From Celeribacter neptunius (GTDB lineage Bacteria; Pseudomonadota; Alphaproteobacteria; Rhodobacterales; Rhodobacteraceae), in assembly GCF_900113955.1 (NCBI RefSeq), contig NZ_FORH01000008.1, positions 186,001 through 250,000 on the forward strand: a stretch of 64,000 bases of DNA, written 5' to 3'. The position numbers and the translations under genes are program-made. Below are positions 37,791-58,895 of the stretch, piece by piece. The notes beneath the pieces were generated by a model. The model had not been told where the DNA came from and did not search any database. It saw only the letters and a list, made by a program, of their open reading frames with translations. How positions within the stretch are numbered: position 1 is the first letter of the stretch; each line of letters opens with the position of its first letter.

Positions 37791-39881
37791 TCAGGCGCTG
37801 CGGGCCAGGGCCGTCGGCGCGGTTGCGCTTTCGATCGCCCGGGCCGAGGCCGAGCCCTGTTCGAGCGAGAAGAACTCGAGATCGTGTTCCATGTTGGTGA
37901 TGGAGCCGCGCAGGGTCACCGTGGCGGCATTGGTTTCTTCCGACATGGCGGCGTTTTGCTGGGTGGTCTGATCGAGCTGGTTCATCGCCGAGCTCAATTG
38001 CGCCAGACCGGTGGCCTGTTCCGTGGTCGAGGTCGCGACCTGGGCGATGCCCTCATGGATATGTTCGGCCACATCGCGAATGCGCGCCAGCGCCGAGCCG
38101 GCTTCGCGCACGAGGCTGACCCCGCCCGCGACCTGCTGGCTTGACGTGTCGATCAGCGTCGCGATCTCGCGGGCCGCATCCGAGGAGCGCTGGGCCAGGG
38201 CCCGGACCTCGGACGCGACGACGGCAAAGCCGCGCCCCGCTTCGCCGGCCCGCGCCGCCTCGACCCCGGCATTGAGCGCCAGAAGATTGGTCTGGAAGGC
38301 GATATCGTCGATCACCGAAGTGATCGAAGCGACCTGTTTCGAGGAGCTTTCGATTTCATCCATGGCGCTGATCGCGCGCACCACCACCTCATCGGCCTGC
38401 ATCGTGTGCGACCGCGCTTCGCCGGACTGGGCCTGTACATGGGTGGCCGTATCGGCGACGCCCTTGACCGAGGCCAGAAGCTCATCCAATGCCGCGGCGC
38501 TTTCCTCGAGCGTGGCGGCCTGATGTTCCGTGCGTCTCGCCAGATCATCGGTGGCCTGTTCGATGGCCTCGGATTCGCTCTTGAGGATCAGGGCCCCGTC
38601 GGTGATCCCGCCGACAATGTCGCGCAGTTTCAGGACGGTGGTATTGAAGCTCTGGCGAATGGCGTCGAATTCGCCCAAATTCCTGTTGAGCTGGATCGAG
38701 AGGTCGCCCCCCGAGAGCGCCCCAAGCCCGGTCATCAACGTGTCGACCGTCTGGCGGTAGACCGTGGTGTCGACCGCGAATTTGACGATCTTGACCACCT
38801 CGCCGGCGGCGTTCTTGATCGGGTTGTAGCTGGCGCGGATGCTGACACGTTTGCCGCCCTTGCCGATCCGTTCATATTCGTCGCTCAATGCTTCGCCGGT
38901 CCGCAGGCGCTGCCAGAAATCCGCGTATTCCCGGGATTGCGCGAGCGCGGGGTCGACGAATATGCGGTGATGCTTGCCGAGAATCTCGGCTTCGCTATAG
39001 CCGAGAATGTCGCAGAAATTGCGGTTGGCCCTGAGCACCGTGCCATCGGGGGCGAATTCGATCACGCCCTGGACTTTCTGAATCGCATCGAGCTGGCCGC
39101 GGGCATCGGCCTCGAGATTCTTGGCATCGGTGATGTCGAAGGCATATTTGACGACCTTGAAGGGCCGGCCCTCGGGATCGATCAGGGTTTCATAGGTGGC
39201 CTCGAGCCAGATCGTGTCACCGTTCTTGGCGGTGCGCCGTACCTGCCCCTTTTCGGAAGAGCCCTTTTTCAACCGGGCCCAGAGATCTCGGTACTCCTGC
39301 GTTTCGGCCAGGTCCTTCGGCATGAATATCCGGTGGTGCTTGCCGCGGATCTCCTCGAGCGTATAGCCGGTGGCCTTCAGGAACAGATCATTGGCATGCA
39401 GGATCTGACCGTCGAGGTCGAATTCGATAAAGGCCATCGAACGGCGGATGGCATCCTCTTTCGAGCGATTGTCGCGTCGTTTCAGATGCATACGCGAGAT
39501 TTCCCGGCCGATGATATAGATCGCCGTGACCTTGCCTTCCTTATCCTTGAACGGGCTGTAGGTGGCGCTGAACCAAAACTCTTCACCGGCCTTGTTCAGC
39601 CGCGGCACGATCCCCTTGCGGGTCTCGCCGGCGAGAATGCGTCCCCAATGCGCGCGGGCTTCCGCATGGTCTTTCGGGCGGATGAAAAAGGTATAATCCT
39701 TCCCCAGAACCTCCTCGGATCCATATCCGGTCACCTCACAGAACAGATCGTTGACCGTGACAATCTTGCCCTCGGGGTCACAGGTGAGGATGAGATGCGT
39801 GTCCTCGAGCACCTGTTCGAGGGGCGAGGCAGGGCTGCGTTTGTCGGCAGATGCACGAGATTTGAAGAGCTTAGAAAACAT
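37791..39881 (-). CDS. Soluble chemoreceptor with three PAS domains
   Basis: Methyl-accepting chemotaxis protein of 696 residues without any membrane segment. Three similar PAS-PAC units lie at about residues 25-135, 145-255 and 265-375; each has a GY(G/T/S)-EE/AEI-GK-H-like segment such as [22 protein letters not shown]-like linker (near 385-430) follows, then the signalling hairpin with [20 protein letters not shown]. The repeated PAS units suggest redox or flavin/haem sensing (Aer/BdlA style). It ends with no CheR-binding pentapeptide that I can see. Confidence 0.9.
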
Positions 39882-50799: not shown

Positions 50800-51951
50800 T
50801 CAGTAGCCCTGCTGGTTCATCGCCACGAAATATCCGACGACAGCGGCAACGATCAGGCCGAGGATCACGGCAAAGGCAATCTTGACCGCGGAATAGGGGC
50901 GTTCGCCCTGGACCTGTCCGGTGCGGCCGTTGACGACGAAACGGTAGCTCTTGCCGCGAAACTTGTAGGCGGCGGTCCAGACCGGCAGGAGGATGTGCTT
51001 ATAGGTGATGTCGCCGTAGCGCGGGGTCATCTGATGGATGCGCTGGCGATCGCCCCCGATGTCGAATTTGATATCGCGGGTGATGACCCGCTCCATCTGA
51101 TCGCGGGCATGGGAAAACCCGCCATCGAGCGAGACGGTATAGGATTCGGCGCGATAGCCGGCGAGATAATCGGGGATATAGGGCTCGAGCGCAGCCAGAT
51201 CCCAGGGCGCAAGCCCGCTGACATATTTGACCGGCAAGGCGGAGCTGGCAACGACCAGCACATCGTCGAAAAACCGCGCGACCTGGCCACGGACGCGGCG
51301 CCATTTGGTCCGGCGGCGGCGCTGGGTTTTACCGTTGACCTGTACGGTGGTGTAATAGTCCGTGCCGCGCTCGCCGGAATACTCCGTTTCGGTCTGGGCG
51401 TCGAAGGTCCAATATGGCATGTAGATGCCGTTCAGCTTGCGCCCCTTGCGGGCATATTGCTTGAGCGCGTTGGGCGCGAACCAGAGCTGTCCGAGCCAGT
51501 CGTTCATCGCCTGATGGGCGCGTTCTTCGGACATGGCAAAGGGCAGCACGCCCTGCGGCTTGATCTGACGATGCGCGCCGGTGTCGGTGACCACGGGGGT
51601 CGCGCAATAGGGGCATTCCGTGGCGTGGACCGTGTCGTCGAGCGTGAGCCGCGCGCCGCAATTGGGGCAGGTGGTGGTGCGCACCTCTTCGGTGACCGGC
51701 GCGGTCTCCGGGGCGCCCTCGAGGGCGAGCTGAAACAGGTCACCGTGATGCAGATGGCCGGGGGCGCGGGCGGCGTCGAAATCCATTTCGCGCGGCGGCA
51801 TGGCGCCGCCGGTCTCGATGGTCTCATGGGCGCCGCAATGGGTGCAGACAAGATCGCCCCGCTCCGGATCGAAACGCATGTCCGCCCCACAGGCGGTACA
51901 GGGGAAACGATGGTCGTCCGAAAGGGCGGAGTTCTTTTCGTTCGGAGCCAT
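50800..51951 (-). CDS. Zinc-ribbon membrane protein (YdjG-like)
   Basis: Protein of 383 residues with two N-terminal zinc ribbons, Cys18/21/36/39 (CTAC...CTHC) and Cys95/98/113/116 (CPNC...CPYC). A conserved middle region follows (IYMPYWTFDAQTETEYSGERG), and a single membrane helix lies near the C-terminus (IAFAVILGLIVAAVVGYFVA). It resembles the Bacillus YdjG type, which acts with an SPFH protein and PspA at the membrane. A partner SPFH gene is at 54662-55780. TFIIB-like ribbons alone would not justify a DNA-binding role here. Confidence 0.75.
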   Translation of the reverse strand: MAPNEKNSALSDDHRFPCTACGADMRFDPERGDLVCTHCGAHETIETGGAMPPREMDFDAARAPGHLHHGDLFQLALEGAPETAPVTEEVRTTTCPNCGARLTLDDTVHATECPYCATPVVTDTGAHRQIKPQGVLPFAMSEERAHQAMNDWLGQLWFAPNALKQYARKGRKLNGIYMPYWTFDAQTETEYSGERGTDYYTTVQVNGKTQRRRRTKWRRVRGQVARFFDDVLVVASSALPVKYVSGLAPWDLAALEPYIPDYLAGYRAESYTVSLDGGFSHARDQMERVITRDIKFDIGGDRQRIHQMTPRYGDITYKHILLPVWTAAYKFRGKSYRFVVNGRTGQVQGERPYSAVKIAFAVILGLIVAAVVGYFVAMNQQGY

Positions 51952-51962
51952 TTTTACCTCTA

Positions 51963-51968
51963 TTTAAC
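51963..51968. promoter_or_regulatory. TTTAAC element upstream of CZB protein 1
   Basis: TTTAAC, 55 bp before the start at 52024. Comparable TTAAC/GTTAA elements precede the three other CZB genes (52899, 53543, 54170). CtrA half-sites in Rhodobacterales are TTAAC-like, so this may be one; a single hexamer is weak evidence alone. Confidence 0.3.
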
Positions 51969-52023
51969 AGGGACGTGGCAAGACATGCGGCGATTCAGTT
52001 CAGTGCATAGGAGAAGGGGTAAC

Positions 52024-52434
52024 ATGGCTGTAGCATCTAGCAGAAGCGAGACACAAATTCGCGATGCAATTTGTGCCCATGGGGACTGGCGTCGCGCGCT
52101 TGACAAGAGCATCGATCATGGGGTTCTCGACAAGTCGGCCGCAGAGATTGCAGACAATACGCAATGTGCGTTTGGCCAATGGCTGACTGAGCTGGAAGGG
52201 GAGCAGCAGGCGGGCAGCCCGTCGATGCAAAAACTCGAGATGGTGAAGCGTATTCACGCCCGGTTTCACACCGAAGCGGGACAAATCGCCCATGAGGTCG
52301 AGCTGGGAAACCACGCTGAGGCCCGCAAGATTTTCGATGACAATCATTTCCGGCGGGTGACCAATTCGCTGGTGCTCAATCTGCATGATTGGCGCAAGGA
52401 TTTCCCCAGTGCTTTGGGCGCCTCGGGCGCATAG
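52024..52434 (+). CDS. Stand-alone CZB zinc-binding protein 1
   Basis: Protein of 136 residues consisting of one CZB (chemoreceptor zinc-binding) domain. The ligand set His19 (AHGDW), Cys48 (CAFGQW), His78 and His82 (IHARFH) has the spacing of the known DgcZ site. There is no chemoreceptor, GGDEF or membrane part. Unlike copies 2-4 it lacks a second cysteine four residues before the ligand cysteine (ADNTQC). The C-terminus carries NSLVLNLHDWRKDF. AGGAGAAGGGG precedes the ATG. It is divergent from the zinc-ribbon gene. Confidence 0.85.
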   Translation: MAVASSRSETQIRDAICAHGDWRRALDKSIDHGVLDKSAAEIADNTQCAFGQWLTELEGEQQAGSPSMQKLEMVKRIHARFHTEAGQIAHEVELGNHAEARKIFDDNHFRRVTNSLVLNLHDWRKDFPSALGASGA

Positions 52435-52460
52435 GACGGCGCGGGCGGGGCCGGTGCCTG

Positions 52461-52781
52461 TCATGTGAGCTCCGCCTGTTCGAACCCGACCACCTGCGCG
52501 ATCTGATCCCGGGTCGGGCTGGTGAAGCGCAACACCAGACAAAACAGGGCCACGCCGATGCCATCCCGGGTGAGACGCCCGGTGATGGTGGCGGCTTTGC
52601 CCTCGGAGACGATCTGGGTCACGGTCACGCTGACCGGCGCGGTGATCCCCGGCATCGCGGCCAGAATTTCGGCCCGGCCCACCATGCTGTCGTGGCCGGT
52701 GCGGTCCCAGCTCGCCGTTTCCGACAGGCTGGACGGGGCCAGGGTTCCGATACCAAGAAAGGCCAGCGCCATGTCGATCAT
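52461..52781 (-). CDS. Small protein with a possible NTF2-like fold
   Basis: Protein of about 106 residues lying antisense between CZB genes 1 and 2. The pattern (helices, then VSVTVTQIVSEGKAATITGRLTRDGIGVALFCLVLRF strands) resembles SnoaL/NTF2-like folds. GGAG 6 nt before the ATG at 52781 supports this start; the frame continues open to an ATG at 52928 (155 residues), without a ribosome site. Convergent with CZB 1, 26 bp away. Function unknown. Confidence 0.5.
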   Translation of the reverse strand: MIDMALAFLGIGTLAPSSLSETASWDRTGHDSMVGRAEILAAMPGITAPVSVTVTQIVSEGKAATITGRLTRDGIGVALFCLVLRFTSPTRDQIAQVVGFEQAELT

Positions 52782-52898
52782 GGGCTGCTCCGTCGCGTCG
52801 GGCCGCAGATCGGCGGCGTAGCGCAGGCGGGTTTGCGGGGCGGGTGTGATCGCGTCTGATCCCTGGCTGATCTCGGGTTCCTCCCGCTGTTTATCACC

Positions 52899-52906
52899 GG
52901 TTAAGT
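52899..52906. promoter_or_regulatory. GGTTAAGT element upstream of CZB protein 2
   Basis: GGTTAAGT, 65 bp before the start at 52972. The same octamer occurs upstream of CZB protein 3 (53543-53550). Its complement, ACTTAACC, contains TTAACC, the Rhodobacterales CtrA half-site pattern. Confidence 0.4.
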
Positions 52907-52971
52907 GGTTGCCAATACCCTCTGCCATTAAACTTGGTGTCTGAACCCTCTTTTGGCGAGGTATGTGAGCG

Positions 52972-53382
52972 ATGCGAGAGATCCTGGGGAAAGATGGCGA
53001 CAGCCGGTTGCGGGATGCGATTTGCGGCCATGTCGATTGGCTGCGCAAATTTCAGGTCTGTATCGAAAAGGGGGCGCTCGATCGCAGCGCCCATGACATC
53101 TCCTGTCACAACAAATGTGATTTCGGGAAATGGCTGGAAACGCTGGCCGTCGATCCCTCGGATCCGACCTTGCAGAAATTCGGCATTATCGACGGGCTGC
53201 ACCGGCGTTTTCACAGCCAGGCCGGAGACATCGCCCACAAGATCGAAGCCGGGTTGCAGCAGGAGGCGCAGGAGGCTTTCAGCTCCAAGTCGTTCCGGCG
53301 GATGACCCATTCTCTGGTCCTCAATCTCCACGATTGGCGTCAGGATTTCAAAGCCTCAATGACCCCAGGCGATTCGCTGTAA
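52972..53382 (+). CDS. Stand-alone CZB zinc-binding protein 2
   Basis: Protein of 136 residues, single CZB domain. Predicted ligands His20 (GHVDW), Cys49 (CDFGKW), His77 and His81 (LHRRFH). A further cysteine, Cys45, gives a C-x3-C arrangement (SCHNKC) shared with copies 3 and 4. The C-terminus has HSLVLNLHDWRQDF. GAGG lies about 10 nt upstream of the ATG. Confidence 0.85.
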   Translation: MREILGKDGDSRLRDAICGHVDWLRKFQVCIEKGALDRSAHDISCHNKCDFGKWLETLAVDPSDPTLQKFGIIDGLHRRFHSQAGDIAHKIEAGLQQEAQEAFSSKSFRRMTHSLVLNLHDWRQDFKASMTPGDSL

Positions 53383-53542
53383 CCGTTGCCCCGATCCCCG
53401 CTCGGTTCGGGACCGAGGCCTGTATTGCCTGGGCACGCGGTTTTGCGATGGTCTTGCCGCGGCTTTATGCGTCCTCTTTTTCACCTTCTCTTTCCGCCTT
53501 CTCCTTTCGCAATATGCGATCTCGCTTGGCATGTTTACGTAG

Positions 53543-53607
53543 GGTTAAGTGCCGCACCCTAGGGTGCGCGCGTAAGTCTCTGACTTGCTTGTGAAATACT
53601 TTATTAT
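53543..53607 (+). promoter_or_regulatory. Promoter region of CZB protein 3
   Basis: GGTTAAGT (53543-53550) is followed by a perfect 16-bp palindrome CGCACCCTAGGGTGCG (53553-53568). A likely promoter is CTGACT (53580-53585), a 16-bp spacer, and TATTAT (53602-53607). The palindrome centre would be near -53 and the GTTAA element near -67, both activator positions. Confidence 0.5.
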
Positions 53608-53622
53608 GACGAGAGGGTTTTC

Positions 53623-54030
53623 ATGCCGCACCATGATCAAAACCACGTAACCCACCATGATGACAGCCAGATACGCGACGCGATATGCGGTCATGTGGAC
53701 TGGCTGCGAAAATTCGCCGTTTCGCTGGAGACCGGGAAGCTTGACAGATCGGCGCATGACATTTCCTGCGACGACCGGTGCGATTTTGGCCAATGGCTGA
53801 CGACACTGCGTGCCGATCCCAATGATCCGGCGATGGAAAAACTGGATGTCATCAAGGCGCTGCACAGCCGGTTTCATCGCTACGCCGGCGAGATCGCGGG
53901 AAGGCTCGAAGCCGGGGAGAAAGAGAATGCGCATGCGCGTTTCACCTCTCCGGCCTTCAAACGGGTGACCAATTCTCTGGTCCTGAACCTGAATGACTGG
54001 CGACAGGATTTCAAACCGCTCATGGTCTGA
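53623..54030 (+). CDS. Stand-alone CZB zinc-binding protein 3
   Basis: Protein of 135 residues. Ligands His24 (GHVDW), Cys53 (CDFGQW), His81 and His85 (LHSRFH), with the extra Cys49 (SCDDRC). Distinctive is an N-terminal histidine-rich leader, MPHHDQNHVTHHDD, with five histidines in 12 residues, which may add metal affinity. The C-terminus has NSLVLNLNDWRQDF. GAGAGGG precedes the ATG. Confidence 0.86.
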   Translation: MPHHDQNHVTHHDDSQIRDAICGHVDWLRKFAVSLETGKLDRSAHDISCDDRCDFGQWLTTLRADPNDPAMEKLDVIKALHSRFHRYAGEIAGRLEAGEKENAHARFTSPAFKRVTNSLVLNLNDWRQDFKPLMV

Positions 54031-54063
54031 GGCCGAAGGGCTGGCGGATTTGCCGGCGCTCGC

Positions 54064-54093
54064 CCCAAACCTGATTTGCCCAAACCTGATATG
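54064..54093. repeat. 15-bp direct duplication
   Basis: CCCAAACCTGATTTG (54064-54078) and CCCAAACCTGATATG (54079-54093), 14 of 15 identical, adjacent, in the spacer between CZB genes 3 and 4. Confidence 0.65.
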
Positions 54094-54169
54094 CCGACCC
54101 GGCAGGCGCGCCCGTCCTTGTGCTCGAGCGCGCCTTTGGCATGTCCGGGGTCCGGCGATTTGATTCAAA

Positions 54170-54175
54170 TTTAAC
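54170..54175. promoter_or_regulatory. TTTAAC element upstream of CZB protein 4
   Basis: TTTAAC, 66 bp before the chosen start at 54242 (57 bp before the ATG at 54233), in an AT-rich segment (TTCAAATTTAACTGATC). Same element type as before CZB 1. Confidence 0.3.
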
Positions 54176-54241
54176 TGATCCCATTCAACATGAAAGAACA
54201 GGAGGTCACGGGCCTCCCATCATGAGTGAAGGATGAATGGT

Positions 54242-54643
54242 ATGACGACCTCTGCAGAGACACATGACGACACCCATATTCGCGATGCGATTTGTGGCCA
54301 CGTAGACTGGCTGCGCCACTTCAAGACCTGTATCGACAAGGGGCAGCTTGAGAAGGACTCCCATCACATTTCCTGTGACGATCGGTGCGAATTCGGCAAG
54401 TGGCTGAAAACCCTTCCCTTCGAGTCCAATGATCCGATCATGCTGAAACACAGTGTCGTCGTCGGGCTGCATCGCCGGTTTCACGCGGCGGCGGCCGAGA
54501 TCGCGCGCAAGGTCGAGGCCGGGGATCGCGCCGCCGCGAGCGAGGATTACACCTCCCACGCCTTCAGGCGCCTGACCAACTCCCTGATCCTCAATCTGAA
54601 CGACTGGCGTCAGGATTTCAAAAAGATGCAGGCCAAGCACTGA
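54242..54643 (+). CDS. Stand-alone CZB zinc-binding protein 4
   Basis: Protein of 133 residues. Ligands His20 (GHVDW), Cys49 (CEFGKW), His77 and His81 (LHRRFH); extra Cys45 (SCDDRC). Closest to copy 3. The C-terminus has NSLILNLNDWRQDF. The ATG at 54242 has GAAGG 9 nt upstream; the ATG at 54233 directly touches that site, so it is less likely. A small hairpin, GGAGG-N7-CCTCC (54201-54217), lies upstream in the leader. Convergent with the SPFH gene, 18 bp away. Confidence 0.85.
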   Translation: MTTSAETHDDTHIRDAICGHVDWLRHFKTCIDKGQLEKDSHHISCDDRCEFGKWLKTLPFESNDPIMLKHSVVVGLHRRFHAAAAEIARKVEAGDRAAASEDYTSHAFRRLTNSLILNLNDWRQDFKKMQAKH

Positions 54644-54661: not shown

Positions 54662-55780
54662 TCACACCCCCGGCGGCGGGGGCGGCGGCGCAACGGTGAA
54701 GAGCTGTGCCAGCTCGGTGACATCCTCGGCCCGGAGCCAGCCATCCTGACCCGGGGTCCAGACGAAGCTCTCGCGTTTGAGCGCGCCTTTGGCGGCCATC
54801 TGGCCCATTTCGGCTTTGGAATACGGCCCTTTGGTCTCGCCATTCTCCGCCACATGCCAGACATGTTCGACCGGCGGGGGCGGCGGCGGTGTCTGTGCCG
54901 CAGGGGCGGCAGCTGCGGGACGCGCGCCCCAGGGGCCCATTTGGCTCTGCGTCGCCATGGCCATGCCCATGCCGGCGCCCATGCCCGCCCCCATCGAGGA
55001 TGCCATGGCGGAATTTTCCGCGCTCATGGCTTCGGCGGCGTTGAATTTCATGTAATTGTCGAGATTGCCGACGATGCCCATCGAGGTGCGTTTGTCCATC
55101 GCCGCCTCGACCGCTTCGGGCAGGCTGATGTTTTCGATGTAGAATTCCGGGATGGTCAGACCGTATTCGGCGACCACTTTCGAGATCTCTGTCGCCACCA
55201 GCTTGCCAAGATCGGCGGTATTGGCCGCCATATCGAGAACCGGAATGCCCGAGCCCGCGACGATGCGCGAAAACGCCTGGACGATGATGTTGCGGATCTG
55301 GAACGAGATCTCGTCCATGGTGAATTCGCCGTCGGTGCCGACGATCTCGGTCAGGAACAGCGCCGGATCGGCGACCTTCACGGTGTAGGTGCCGTAGGCC
55401 CGAAGCCGCACCGGGCCAAACTCCGGATCGCGGCAGATGATCGGGTTTTTCGTGCCCCATTTCAGGTTGGCGAACCGCGTGGTGTTGACGAAATACACCT
55501 CGGATTTGAACGGCGAGCGGAAGCCGTGATCCCAATGTTGCAGCGTCGTCAGGATCGGCATGTTGTTGGTCTCGAGCATATAGAGCCCGGGGGTGAAGAC
55601 ATCGGCCAATTGCCCCTCATGGACGAACACCGCCGCCTGACCTTCGCGCACGGTGAGCTTGGCGCCGTATTTGATCTCGTGGCCCTCGCGTTCGAACCGC
55701 CAGACCATGGTGTCACGGCTGTCATCCACCCAATGGATGACGTCGATGAATTCACCAGAGAGAAAATCGAAAATACCCAT
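54662..55780 (-). CDS. SPFH-domain protein with C-terminal GYF_2 domain (YdjI-like)
   Basis: Protein of 372 residues. Residues about 25-245 are an SPFH/band-7-like domain of the virion core protein/YdjI type (IHWVDDSRDTMVWRFERE, REGQAAVFVHEGQLADVFTPG, LDMAANTADLGKLVATEI). A Met-Gly-rich linker (GAGMGAGMGMAMA) follows, then a proline run and a GYF_2 domain (about 310-362, VWHVAENGETKGPYSKAEMG). It ends in a second poly-proline run. It likely scaffolds membrane-associated complexes. GGAGGCCCCC precedes the ATG. Confidence 0.87.
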   Translation of the reverse strand: MGIFDFLSGEFIDVIHWVDDSRDTMVWRFEREGHEIKYGAKLTVREGQAAVFVHEGQLADVFTPGLYMLETNNMPILTTLQHWDHGFRSPFKSEVYFVNTTRFANLKWGTKNPIICRDPEFGPVRLRAYGTYTVKVADPALFLTEIVGTDGEFTMDEISFQIRNIIVQAFSRIVAGSGIPVLDMAANTADLGKLVATEISKVVAEYGLTIPEFYIENISLPEAVEAAMDKRTSMGIVGNLDNYMKFNAAEAMSAENSAMASSMGAGMGAGMGMAMATQSQMGPWGARPAAAAPAAQTPPPPPPVEHVWHVAENGETKGPYSKAEMGQMAAKGALKRESFVWTPGQDGWLRAEDVTELAQLFTVAPPPPPPGV

Positions 55781-55795: not shown

Positions 55796-56776
55796 TCAAA
55801 GATCCTCGCCCATCAGCTCGTAAGCGATCCGGGTCGCGATCGGGCGGGCAATTTCAGGGCGCATGCCGGGGGCAAGGCGCGGGTCGTAGAGAATGCGCAA
55901 GAGCAGCTCGTCATGGCGTGTCAAAAGCGCGAATTCCTCGTCATCGTTGAAAATCGTCGGCCGGGCATAGGGGCTGTCATTGGCCAGTCCCAGCCCCTGG
56001 GCGATTTCTTCGTGGAAGCAGGATTTGCGCAACAAGTCAGGATGTTCGGCGCGAATGATCGCCACGGCGGAGCGGTAAGCCCCGTCATCGGCCGGGTCCG
56101 AGGCCACGACCAGACAATAGGACGAGCGCGGCATGTTGACGACCGAGCGCACCGCATCCTGACCGATGCCGGGAATGAGCTGGGTGAGCCGCGGGCCGAT
56201 GGCGCGGCGCTCATCCTCGTTGAGCACGAGCACGTGGAAATTCGCCCGCGACGATTGCGCAGATGACAGTGAGATGGAGTGGCCCGTGGCATTGGCGAGT
56301 CGGGACACCAGATGGTTGACCGTGGCGCGATCCGTGGCCTGTTTCTCCGGCGACACGGTGGCGCCGAACTCGAGGCCGATCCGCACGGGGACCTGCCAGC
56401 GATGCAGGTTCGCGGGGGTCACCTGGGCCACGAATTGGCCGTTGACCGAGGTATATTCGTCATTCAGCGCGATCGCGTCGAAATTCGCCGCCAGTTGCCG
56501 GGCGGAATAGGGCGTGTCCGGTCCGCCGCCATCGGTGCGCAACAGGTCATTGGCCAGAAGATCGGCCTGCATCCGCGCATAATAGCTCTCGAGCGCGAGG
56601 CTCACCTCGCTGCGTTGCGGGGGCACGGCGGCGATCGGTTGCGGCGCGGGCACTGTGGTCGGACGCGGGGTCGGCGCGGTGTCGGGGATCTGCACACAGG
56701 CGCTCAGCGCGAGGAAAGACCCCGCGCAGAGTGCAGCCCATCTGCTGGCCGACCTATGCCGTCCCGCGATCTTCAT
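55796..56776 (-). CDS. DUF2927 lipoprotein
   Basis: Protein of 326 residues with a lipoprotein signal (LALSAC, lipidated Cys near residue 27), a proline-rich linker, and a DUF2927 domain. CFHEEIAQGLGLAND has the HExxxxxGL pattern of zinc-metalloprotease-like sites in this family. Activity is not established. The ATG overlaps the telA stop as ATGA, so it is part of the same operon and places this operon at the envelope. Confidence 0.82.
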   Translation of the reverse strand: MKIAGRHRSASRWAALCAGSFLALSACVQIPDTAPTPRPTTVPAPQPIAAVPPQRSEVSLALESYYARMQADLLANDLLRTDGGGPDTPYSARQLAANFDAIALNDEYTSVNGQFVAQVTPANLHRWQVPVRIGLEFGATVSPEKQATDRATVNHLVSRLANATGHSISLSSAQSSRANFHVLVLNEDERRAIGPRLTQLIPGIGQDAVRSVVNMPRSSYCLVVASDPADDGAYRSAVAIIRAEHPDLLRKSCFHEEIAQGLGLANDSPYARPTIFNDDEEFALLTRHDELLLRILYDPRLAPGMRPEIARPIATRIAYELMGEDL

Positions 56777-57957
56777 CAGGAGGGAACGGCCGGCCCCGCC
56801 GCATTGGCAGAGGCTTTTGCCGAGGCCAGCGTATCGCGCAGATTGGCTTCCATGGTCTTGAGCTCGACCTCGGCCTCGGCGCGTTTGCGCTTGCCCTCAT
56901 CGGCAATCTGCAGGCTTTCCTCGATCGTGGCGATCAGCTCGGCATTGGCGGTTTTCACCGCTTCGATGTCGAAGACGCCGCGTTCCATCTCCTCGCGCAC
57001 CACCTTGTTGGCTTCGCGCAGGTTCTTGGCGTTGGCGGTCAGAAGCTCATTGGTGAGATCGGTCGCTTCGCGCACGGATTTCGCGGCCTCGGAGCTGCGC
57101 TGAATGGTCACCGCCTGCGCCAGCTGGGTTTCCCAGAGCGGCACGGTGTTAACGAGCGTCGAGTTGATCTTGGTCACCAAGGATTTGTCGTTTTCCTGCA
57201 CCAGACGGATCGAGGGCAGCGATTGCATGGTCACCTGACGGGTCAGTTTGAGATCATGCACCCGACGTTCGAGATCGTCACGCGCGGCGCGCAGATCGCG
57301 CAGCTCCTGCGCCTTGATCACCTGATCGGCTTCCGGCGCGGCATCGACGGCGGCGGCCAAGGCCGGGATGTCGGTCTCGTCCAATTCCTTGAGCTTCAGC
57401 TCGCCGGCGGCAATGTAGATCGCCAGCTCGTCGTAGAAGGTCAGGGTCTTTTCATAGAGCATGTCCAGCGACTTGATGTCCTTGAGCAGCTTGTGCTCAT
57501 GGGTCAGCAGGTTGTCGGTGATCTTGTCGATCTGGCTCTGCACATCCTCGAAACGGGCGACGAATTTCGCCATCGGCGCGGCGCGGCCCAAAAGCTTTTC
57601 CCACCAGCTGCGCTCACGGCGCACGTCGAGCTCGGAGACCGAGAAACCGCGAATGGTGGTGACGATGGAACGCAGGCTGTCGCCCGCCGGCCCGACATCC
57701 TTGTTCTTCACATCCTGCAACATCGCCTGGCTGATTTCCTGCAGCTCGGCCTGCGCGGCAGAGCCGAAGCGCACGATCGAATTGGTGTCGCCCATGTCGA
57801 TCTCGGCCTTGGCCTTTTCGACCGCACCTGCGACCGGGGTCTCGGCCAGCGTCGCCGGGTCGAGCAATTCGCCCTTCGGTTCGGGCAGGACCGCGAGGGT
57901 CACTTCCTCGACGTCTTTCAATGCGGCTTCGGCCTGTTGGCGGATAGTATCGGACAT
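56776..57957 (-). CDS. Toxic anion resistance protein (TelA/YaaN family)
   Basis: Helical, coiled-coil-rich protein of 393 residues of the TelA family (VQSQIDKITDNLLTHEHKLLKDIKSLDMLYEKTLTFYDEL is diagnostic). TelA homologues are tied to tellurite, antibiotic and envelope-stress tolerance; the mechanism is unknown. The ATG at 57957 has AGGGGAAG upstream; an ATG at 57987, overlapping the xpaC stop, has none. Confidence 0.88.
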   Translation of the reverse strand: MSDTIRQQAEAALKDVEEVTLAVLPEPKGELLDPATLAETPVAGAVEKAKAEIDMGDTNSIVRFGSAAQAELQEISQAMLQDVKNKDVGPAGDSLRSIVTTIRGFSVSELDVRRERSWWEKLLGRAAPMAKFVARFEDVQSQIDKITDNLLTHEHKLLKDIKSLDMLYEKTLTFYDELAIYIAAGELKLKELDETDIPALAAAVDAAPEADQVIKAQELRDLRAARDDLERRVHDLKLTRQVTMQSLPSIRLVQENDKSLVTKINSTLVNTVPLWETQLAQAVTIQRSSEAAKSVREATDLTNELLTANAKNLREANKVVREEMERGVFDIEAVKTANAELIATIEESLQIADEGKRKRAEAEVELKTMEANLRDTLASAKASANAAGPAVPS

Positions 57958-57983
57958 AGTGGCTTCCCCTGATCCAAACTCGT

Positions 57984-58895
57984 TCATGACATGATTTTAT
58001 CTTTGACGCCTTCACGCGCCAGACGATCGCGCAGCACTTCGATCTCGATGTCGAGGTCTGTTTTATCGTCCAAAAGCAACTTTTTATGACGGGCGTCGAA
58101 ATTCGCTTCGAGATCGTCCAGAAGCGCGAACCAGTCCTGTCGCGCCTGGGCGTTGCGGCTCTTTGCCCAGAGATCGGCATATTTCACCGTCGCATCGCGG
58201 GCACCCAGGAGATAAACGCCCAGGTATTTGCGCGCGGCGGTGAGATCGCGCGGGTCCTCTTCGACGGTGCGGAACATGGCGCGGGCGGTGGTGATGAACC
58301 TCTCCAGCCGGTCCTCGGCCTGGCGGTCGCCGGAGCGGTTGAGCGCCTCACGCATCGCCGACAGATGCGCCTCGGCCTCGTCCACCGCCTTGGCGACGCG
58401 GTCCTGCTGGAACAGGTCGATCTCGTCGAAACCTTTGTTCTTCAAAGGGTCGAGGCCGAAGGCGAGGCTGTGCAGAGCGACGCCGAGCACGGCGAAAATC
58501 ACCGTCTCCAGCGGGCCCCAGCCGAACCAGCCAACGAGCCCGAGGCCAAGCCCGGTCAGAACCGAGCCGAAGATTTTGCGCGGGATTGCCGGGCGGCGCG
58601 AGACCTTGCGCGCCTCATAGGCTTCTTCCGCCTTGAGCCCTTCGCGGGTCAGGAAGGCGGCGCCAACGAGGCAGCCGAGCGCCACCAGATAGCCGGCCAT
58701 GGTGACCGGCCCAGCGCCGAAGGCTTTCCAGGCCAGGGGCAGGGCGGCAAAGAACAACAGGTTCGAACGCGCGCCGACGCGCGACGGTTTCTTGCCGTCG
58801 AAAGGCCGCGCCGCAGGGGCGTTCACCGGCGCCTCGTCATCCGGGGAATAGGCGTCGCCTTTGGGGGAATAGGTGGAGCCGTAGCGCTTGGCCAT
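57984..58895 (-). CDS. XpaC-like membrane protein (5-bromo-4-chloroindolyl phosphate hydrolysis family)
   Basis: Protein of 303 residues: a basic N-terminus, four membrane helices (about residues 43-85 and 108-150), and a helical cytoplasmic part (about 155-300) with LEANFDARHKKLLLDDKTDLDIEIEVLRDRL. xpaC and telA-type genes are paired in Bacillus (xpaC-yaaN) and here. The family name comes from a plate phenotype and does not prove phosphatase activity. The start overlaps the upstream small ORF as TAATG. Confidence 0.8.
   Translation of the reverse strand: MAKRYGSTYSPKGDAYSPDDEAPVNAPAARPFDGKKPSRVGARSNLLFFAALPLAWKAFGAGPVTMAGYLVALGCLVGAAFLTREGLKAEEAYEARKVSRRPAIPRKIFGSVLTGLGLGLVGWFGWGPLETVIFAVLGVALHSLAFGLDPLKNKGFDEIDLFQQDRVAKAVDEAEAHLSAMREALNRSGDRQAEDRLERFITTARAMFRTVEEDPRDLTAARKYLGVYLLGARDATVKYADLWAKSRNAQARQDWFALLDDLEANFDARHKKLLLDDKTDLDIEIEVLRDRLAREGVKDKIMS

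Follow-up and report, generated by a model that had tools for sequence, protein, structure and literature searches.

What does a CZB zinc-binding domain do when it is encoded on its own, and why would one bacterium keep four such genes side by side? The question is raised by a locus of Celeribacter neptunius (contig NZ_FORH01000008.1, positions 186,001 to 250,000; this stretch of 64,000 nucleotides is hereafter called the window), in which four genes for single-domain CZB proteins lie antiparallel to an operon, between its zinc-ribbon and SPFH genes (a place hereafter called the slot). CZB-only proteins are an already known class, a named subgroup that accounts for 27.1% of 10,140 CZB sequences and in which some entries may be incomplete records (PMC8262984, cited here, like the papers below, for part of its text); the parts of that paper examined give no function for the subgroup. 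With about a quarter of catalogued CZB proteins lacking an output domain, this locus provides a natural family for the class. What is new here is the array, the sites upstream of its genes and its history: no CZB array was named in the titles or abstract openings of the literature matching CZB-only or stand-alone CZB, and no paper joining CZB and CtrA was found in our literature search. The four genes are:

52024..52434, plus strand, CZB copy 1, 136 amino acids; most likely the copy of the original locus, sister to the single copy of the Celeribacter genome G014, on a long branch.
52972..53382, plus strand, CZB copy 2, 136 amino acids.
53623..54030, plus strand, CZB copy 3, 135 amino acids; the copy for which a structure was modelled.
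54233..54643, plus strand, CZB copy 4, 136 amino acids; a start at 54242 is equally possible.

An earlier note on this DNA had described them as a head-to-tail tandem, which holds in that all four are on the plus strand, but a SnoaL-like gene on the minus strand breaks the array between copy 1 and copies 2-4.

All four proteins match PF13682 (E values of 5.9e-10 to 1e-7; 32.6-39.8 bits, with a cut-off of 29.4), and a Pfam scan at an E value of 0.1 gave no family beyond it for any of them. The zinc ligands (His, Cys and the two His of His-x3-His) are invariant in the alignment of the four copies, each of which also keeps the C-x-FG-[KQ]-W segment and the SL-LNL-DWR-DF tail; identity to copy 1 is 42-46% for copies 2-4. 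A fusion to a chemoreceptor of the methyl-accepting chemotaxis protein (MCP) type, as in TlpD, was not encountered for any of the four proteins by Pfam and genome search, nor was a fusion to a GGDEF domain, as in DgcZ, by Pfam, NCBIfam and genome search; likewise, a genome-wide search found no fifth CZB above the PF13682 cut-off. The four are single-domain CZB proteins and account for every CZB that exceeds the cut-off in this Celeribacter genome, and the initial description of four paralogues of about 135 residues with intact ligands, none fused to a chemoreceptor, GGDEF or kinase domain, was borne out. With CZB as their only detectable domain, they are like the CZB-only subgroup, from which they differ in forming an array of four, each with a CtrA-like site upstream (see below). 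Arg is enriched at 'position 2' of the motif in receptors, whereas in CZB-only proteins this position is poorly conserved or Ala (PMC8262984); the residue after the zinc Cys is A, D, D and E across our four copies and never Arg, a further likeness if, as is our own reading, this residue is equated with position 2.

An AlphaFold2 model, obtained for copy 3 only and from a five-row alignment, is a helical bundle with a predicted local distance difference test score (pLDDT) of 85.8. Its best match in the PDB by Foldseek is 3t9o, the CZB domain of Escherichia coli DgcZ (template modelling scores 0.64/0.71, probability 1.00, but an E value of only 0.029), and 3t9o is also the top PDB match by sequence profile (E 0.043). 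In NCBIfam the proteins show similarity to the diguanylate cyclase family PRK09894, its first 130 residues being matched, far below the cut-off. The ligand pattern is that of DgcZ, and DgcZ also shares the Trp at the third position past the first zinc His, a non-discriminating feature since H-x2-W occurs in 28 of the 33 CZB proteins, mostly receptors, of the quick tree described below. Unlike DgcZ, the window proteins have no GGDEF domain; identity is about 20% and the zinc site is predicted from sequence. Chemoreceptors of the TlpD/McpA type, with a C-terminal CZB, also share the zinc-site pattern, but here CZB and receptor are separate genes, and the window proteins branch apart from alphaproteobacterial MCP-CZBs. 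The ratio of nonsynonymous to synonymous substitution rates (dN/dS) was below 1 in all 13 computable pairs (0.09-0.62), several with dS near or above 1, while two further pairs were saturated; within the window it was 0.25-0.49 for the four of six pairs computed, with dS of 0.8-1.4.

When upstream regions were compared across the genus, a direct repeat with an 11-bp period was recognised before the CZB genes. The CtrA full site is TTAA-N7-TTAA, and CtrA controls flagella and chemotaxis in this order (PMC6180460, PMC4046655). The CtrA-like full sites of the window, all of which depart from the published consensus in the first half, are:

51953..51968, plus strand, TTTA-N7-TTAAC, at -71 from copy 1 and 2 bp before the start codon of the divergent zinc-ribbon gene.
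52890..52905, plus strand, TTTA-N7-TTAAG, at -82 from copy 2.
53534..53549, plus strand, TTTA-N7-TTAAG, at -89 from copy 3.
54160..54175, plus strand, TTGA-N7-TTAAC, at -73 from the start of copy 4 at 54233.

On both strands of the 64-kb window TTNA-N7-TTAA[CG] occurs four times, once before each CZB gene and on the CZB strand, against an expected 0.34, and none of 100 shuffles reached four; TTTA-N7-TTAA[CG] occurs three times against an expected 0.00. With the last base dropped, TTNA-N7-TTAA precedes all 14 Celeribacter slot copies (the four described here and ten copies of other species, the decayed copy of G003 included) at -33 to -89, and it was not found in any of the nine CZB-free Celeribacter slots. 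The background is 14 occurrences in 357 kb of neighbouring Celeribacter DNA and two in 120 kb of control DNA of the same genome; both these counts and the CZB-free slots are independent of the sequences that yielded the pattern. The site also stands before one of the seven GGDEF genes of this genome (G000:C14:334060), just ahead of the first in-frame ATG. Strict regular expressions for the CtrA site and the LexA box gave half sites only and no full match, and a sigma-70 scan of the array was uninformative, with two promoter-like sites, one of them before copy 3, against 1.0 expected. The earlier suggestion that each gene has its own promoter thus stands as far as one conserved CtrA-like site before each gene goes, but promoters were not shown by the sigma-70 scan. 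As a side observation, CtrA-like sites in the control DNA lie near a gene that by eye is sugar-transferase-like (polysaccharide) and before a GGDEF gene (L281:3737 and 4810; L274:2394), a placement that fits the prediction of a cyclic di-GMP and polysaccharide regulon.

The genome has 10 MCP and 7 GGDEF loci, none coinciding with a CZB. Matches to MCPs at an E value of 0.001 were counted in 20 Celeribacter genomes: the ten with a slot CZB have 10, 6, 8, 5, 5, 7, 5, 5, 5 and 7, and the ten with a CZB-free or decayed slot have 3, 2, 0, 1, 3, 3, 3, 3, 2 and 3. The slot CZB separates genomes with at least five MCPs from those with three or fewer (uncorrected Mann-Whitney p of 1.3e-4); GGDEF counts separate less (uncorrected p of 0.011). 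One chemoreceptor of the window is a candidate partner:

37791..39881, minus strand, PAS-MCP, a CZB-less chemoreceptor that carries three PAS domains and lies some 12 kb from copy 1.

Leaving aside G005, whose contig ends, PAS-MCP and slot CZB are both present in nine genomes, both absent (or the CZB decayed) in seven, and the CZB is present alone in one. G003, G004 and G015 have the conserved flanking genes but no PAS-MCP between them, and all three lack an intact slot CZB. The contrast is illustrated by a sister pair, in which G014 has a CZB, seven MCPs and the PAS-MCP, whereas G003 has a CZB without the His-x3-His helix, two MCPs and no PAS-MCP. Among CZB genomes of other genera, for which no background was drawn, MCP counts run from 0 (G411) to 21 (G364); G422, of another genus in the same family, encodes a dCache-MCP-CZB protein.

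We favour, at somewhat short of an even chance, the reading that these are CtrA-controlled soluble zinc or redox sensors acting in trans in motility and cyclic di-GMP signalling, with a putative partner. The analysis shows the domain, the ligands, the duplication history, the conserved upstream sites and the co-occurrence; that CtrA binds these sites, that the proteins bind zinc and dimerise, and which partner they affect and in which direction, is inference. The four proteins would be four-helix bundles that probably pair as homodimers, as the CZB domain of DgcZ does, each with a predicted zinc site of three His and one Cys. Each gene would be switched on separately through its upstream repeat and, because this repeat nearly matches the CtrA full site, the genes would belong to a CtrA-type swim-or-stick programme (motility, cyclic di-GMP, polysaccharide). 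The proteins have no output domain, so any effect must come from their binding to something else or from zinc binding alone. When zinc or redox conditions change, the CZB would gain or lose zinc and change shape, and the altered shape would act in trans to modulate a partner, either a diguanylate cyclase or a CZB-less chemoreceptor, as the H-NOX protein of D. shibae inhibits its diguanylate cyclase. DgcZ is active when zinc-free and inhibited when zinc-bound, and hypochlorous acid sensing by CZB uses the zinc-site Cys (PMC8262984); a preprint of 2026 makes the case that it is through the labile zinc pool that CZBs report redox (PMC13370339). D. shibae has a diguanylate cyclase gene with a CtrA site ahead of it; in this species the H-NOX protein inhibits an adjacent diguanylate cyclase, and cyclic di-GMP genes are linked to CtrA and LexA (PMC6473078). 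That pair, H-NOX and Dgc1, resembles what we propose in being a stand-alone sensor protein that inhibits a diguanylate cyclase in the same order, but its domain is unrelated and its partner gene adjacent, whereas here there are only candidate partners. A trans-acting sensor in a CtrA-type programme is preferred because of the upstream sites, the loss together with receptors and the D. shibae precedent.

A number of results weigh against this reading. The site pattern was first read off these same upstream regions, so that the count in the window is not blind; it precedes only four of 22 other CZBs, in one case on the opposite strand; and its first half is TTTA in 12 of the 14 Celeribacter sites and TTGA in one, the exact CtrA half TTAA occurring only before the decayed G003 copy. 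It stands before none of the ten MCP genes of this genome (nine elsewhere and one inside the window), and MCP genes as partners co-regulated through the same site were rejected. In a tree-based test of the MCP counts all four independent pairs agree, but with a p of 0.125 the test is unable to reach 0.05; moreover, the cut-off of five was set after the counts had been seen, and the low count of G005 comes from an 85%-complete genome. G007 and G013 have the PAS-MCP but no slot CZB, and the converse holds for G017, whose slot has a CZB while the PAS-MCP is absent at that place; on the tree, the pair test for the PAS-MCP is weaker (two to three of four agree, none opposed). Finally, G411 has a CZB but no MCP, in a stretch that may be chimeric. 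Action in trans with a chemoreceptor or cyclase, as the earlier note had proposed, is left plausible by this balance, the split in MCP counts and the dCache-MCP-CZB protein of one family member speaking for it and the four contrasts and the site-free MCP genes against it.

The copies may differ in threshold. More broadly, and as a possibility that we hold with considerable doubt, stand-alone CZBs may be a separate family of diffusible zinc or redox sensors, wired into the CtrA swim-or-stick programme and acting in trans on cyclic di-GMP enzymes or CZB-less chemoreceptors; their number would have grown independently in different genera of Rhodobacteraceae, to four here and to three in this slot of another genus, and the extra copies would broaden or layer the response to zinc. 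If true, zinc or redox sensing would be tied to the CtrA network. Because the upstream sites of the family are conserved, its presence follows a phylogenetic pattern (retention where chemoreceptors are many, absence or decay where they are few), it recurs in two genomic contexts and candidate partners can be named, the in-trans question is directly testable in a marine bacterium.

How did the array arise? Copy 1 pairs as sister with the lone slot copy of G014 (support 91/85 and, in a second tree, 97/90), whose gene order of zinc ribbon, CZB and SnoaL matches that of the window, and copies 2-4 form one clade (98/98; 100/98) near G011, G012 and G018. Most likely, judging from these trees, copy 1 is the original and copies 2-4 are a lineage-specific triplication; a stand-alone CZB lineage would have retained its original copy while a second copy was triplicated. 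The slot of G111, of another genus, holds a three-copy array, one copy of which lacks the Cys; the Celeribacter clade excludes all three (100/100), and two are mutual sisters (100/100), so the two arrays expanded separately. In a quick tree, the stand-alone CZBs of the family lie apart from receptor-type and GGDEF-type CZBs, with a modest Shimodaira-Hasegawa-like approximate likelihood ratio support of 83, in a clade that also takes in two CZB-only proteins of another alphaproteobacterial family and one MCP-borne CZB; this MCP-CZB fusion groups with them loosely. Scans of 12 long-frame proteins of that tree gave MCP-CZB for all 12, and both GGDEF rows are GGDEF-CZB. The rows G055mcp, G003deg and G411s were left out of the first tree, these and G013x, G062s and G188s out of the quick tree, and G055mcp, G003deg, G411s and G013x out of the second, which places G111.

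Across Celeribacter, a CZB match exceeds the cut-off in 11 of 20 genomes, that of the window included. Nine genomes besides the window have one intact copy at the same slot, G013 has a divergent CZB outside it, and in G003 the slot copy is decayed, an internal deletion having removed the His-x3-His helix. In a draw of 394 genomes of the family, 21 match the Pfam CZB at an E value of 1e-3 and 20 exceed the cut-off; a profile built from 25 stand-alone sequences finds a CZB in 24. Half of these 24 have a gene or remnant in the slot and the other 12 have none there. Ligands are intact in the slots of the window, G062, G115, G188, G197, G364, G408 and G411, and degraded copies are found in G250 (without the Cys and the last His), G131 (stops) and G253 (a fragment). 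The slot gene or its remnant occurs in 11 further genera, or 10 if G411 and G115 count once. These two belong to different genera, yet they share about 2.5 kb at 100% identity, from the contig start to inside the SPFH gene (L062:1-2541 and L063), which may reflect recent recombination or a chimeric assembly; since the identity begins at a contig end, they are better counted once.

Such decay invites the explanation that a dispensable gene family drifts in a permissive intergenic slot and that the four copies have no distinct functions. The deletion in G003, the stops, fragment and lost ligands of G131, G253 and G250, the G111 copy without Cys and a CZB-like gene on a dispersed 720-bp repeat in G111 would fit it, yet we regard it as quite improbable, given that ligands are intact in all four copies here and in nine of ten other Celeribacter slot loci, that dN/dS is below 1 and that upstream sites are kept before every copy. 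The case of random pseudogenes without conserved ligands, named in the earlier note as what would refute its reading, does not hold in Celeribacter and was rejected there on ligand conservation and dN/dS; elsewhere some slot copies are decayed. The survey of copy number and neighbours that the note had called for gave one intact slot copy in nine other Celeribacter genomes and the three-copy array of G111. The G111 repeat itself, of about 720 bp, comprises a CZB-like gene and a terminator-like hairpin, and its complete copies are 95-97% identical (L195:7182-7905, L196:4700-5423, L197:1-722 and the ends of L198 and L199); it looks like a small mobile CZB cassette, and we noticed no transposase in the stretches that we read.

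A second context is shared by five of the 24 CZB genomes (G022, G130, G138, G260 and G281), in which the CZB gene lies directly 3' of dinB, as a tandem pair in G130; Pfam identified DinB in all five. The DinB of this context has an N-terminal zinc-ribbon-like CxxC...CxxC segment (L051, L052, L054, L057, L060), and a stomatin-like gene lies beyond the pair in four of the five loci (Band_7 by Pfam in G022, the rest by eye). Other CZB genes of the family stand beside rlmE, beside bpt or near a nifB-like gene; the last, in G274 (L058:8700-9080), adjoins a SIR2-like gene, with the nifB-like gene (radical SAM plus Nitro_FeMo-Co) nearby. In the class, 42 of 385 genomes exceed the CZB cut-off, mostly with long open frames, and for seven further CZB genes from this survey no common neighbour was found by eye. 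The two recurrent contexts adjoin proteins with CxxC pairs, and the CZB proteins could be zinc buffers or metallochaperones, high-affinity soluble binders that exchange zinc with zinc-ribbon clients (the neighbouring zinc-ribbon protein; the N-terminus of DinB). The absence of an output domain, a DgcZ zinc affinity reported to be subfemtomolar (PMC8262984) and the four copies, explicable by dosage, would agree with this; but separate conserved upstream sites and loss with chemoreceptors suit signalling better, rlmE, bpt and the nifB-like gene are not zinc-ribbon genes, and the zinc-ribbon link was spotted after the fact, with no background comparison, for which reason we keep it only as a rival, and a very improbable one.

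Might the CZBs instead serve the operon that surrounds them? The neighbouring genes are:

50800..51951, minus strand, double zinc-ribbon protein that by eye has a hydrophobic stretch at its C-terminus; its gene diverges from copy 1.
52461..52928, minus strand, SnoaL/NTF2-like gene separating copy 1 from copy 2; its Pfam match, SnoaL_2 (E 0.043), falls short of the cut-off; start placed by eye.
54662..55780, minus strand, SPFH (Band_7_1) plus GYF_2 protein, YdjI-like, convergent with copy 4 (Pfam).
55796..58895, minus strand, remainder of the envelope-stress operon, with DUF2927, TelA and XpaC (Halogen_Hydrol) (Pfam).

The zinc-ribbon protein, with two ribbons of paired CxxC motifs, resembles the published description of Bacillus subtilis YdjG, which has two zinc ribbons, an NTF2-like domain and a transmembrane segment (PMC11237479); a structure model of our protein was discarded (pLDDT 37.8), and a YdjG-like middle domain is only putative. 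In B. subtilis, YdjG, YdjH and YdjI form an envelope-stress system with PspA (PMC8581546). The CZBs could be dedicated zinc or redox modulators of this module (XpaC-TelA-DUF2927-SPFH-zinc ribbon), acting through the YdjG-like zinc-ribbon protein or the SPFH protein, an explanation that we consider unlikely. In all 16 intact single-copy slot loci tabulated elsewhere (nine Celeribacter and seven from other genera) the CZB gene diverges from the zinc-ribbon gene and converges on the SPFH gene; the slot is occupied across the 11 genera, the first CtrA-like site abuts the zinc-ribbon start, and YdjG, YdjH and YdjI are required for membrane foci of PspA (PMC8581546). The flanking operon, however, is itself conserved, and descent alone could keep an inserted gene where it is; 341 of the 394 genomes have the SPFH protein and 24 have a CZB; and 12 of these 24 have no slot CZB, five having one next to dinB instead.

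The slot itself accepts other genes. In 40 CZB-free genomes, hand-picked among the SPFH matches listed and not a random draw, the SPFH and zinc-ribbon genes are co-directional in every case, the gap between them being up to 163 bp in 28 and more than 300 bp, filled by other genes, in 12, so that shared position alone is weak evidence for a link to the operon. A gene that by eye is cytochrome b561-like fills five of the 12 enlarged gaps (L216, L227, L231, L233, L242), and these occupants mark the slot as a recurrent insertion site. Within the genus, the zinc-ribbon protein is much more variable (54-73% identity to that of the window) than the SPFH protein (86-95%). Eight of the nine CZB-free Celeribacter slots are occupied by a SnoaL-like open reading frame, the ninth (G005) being without one; in the window this gene has, by eye, conserved SGR-TR-G, FCHV-R and VSFE-like segments.

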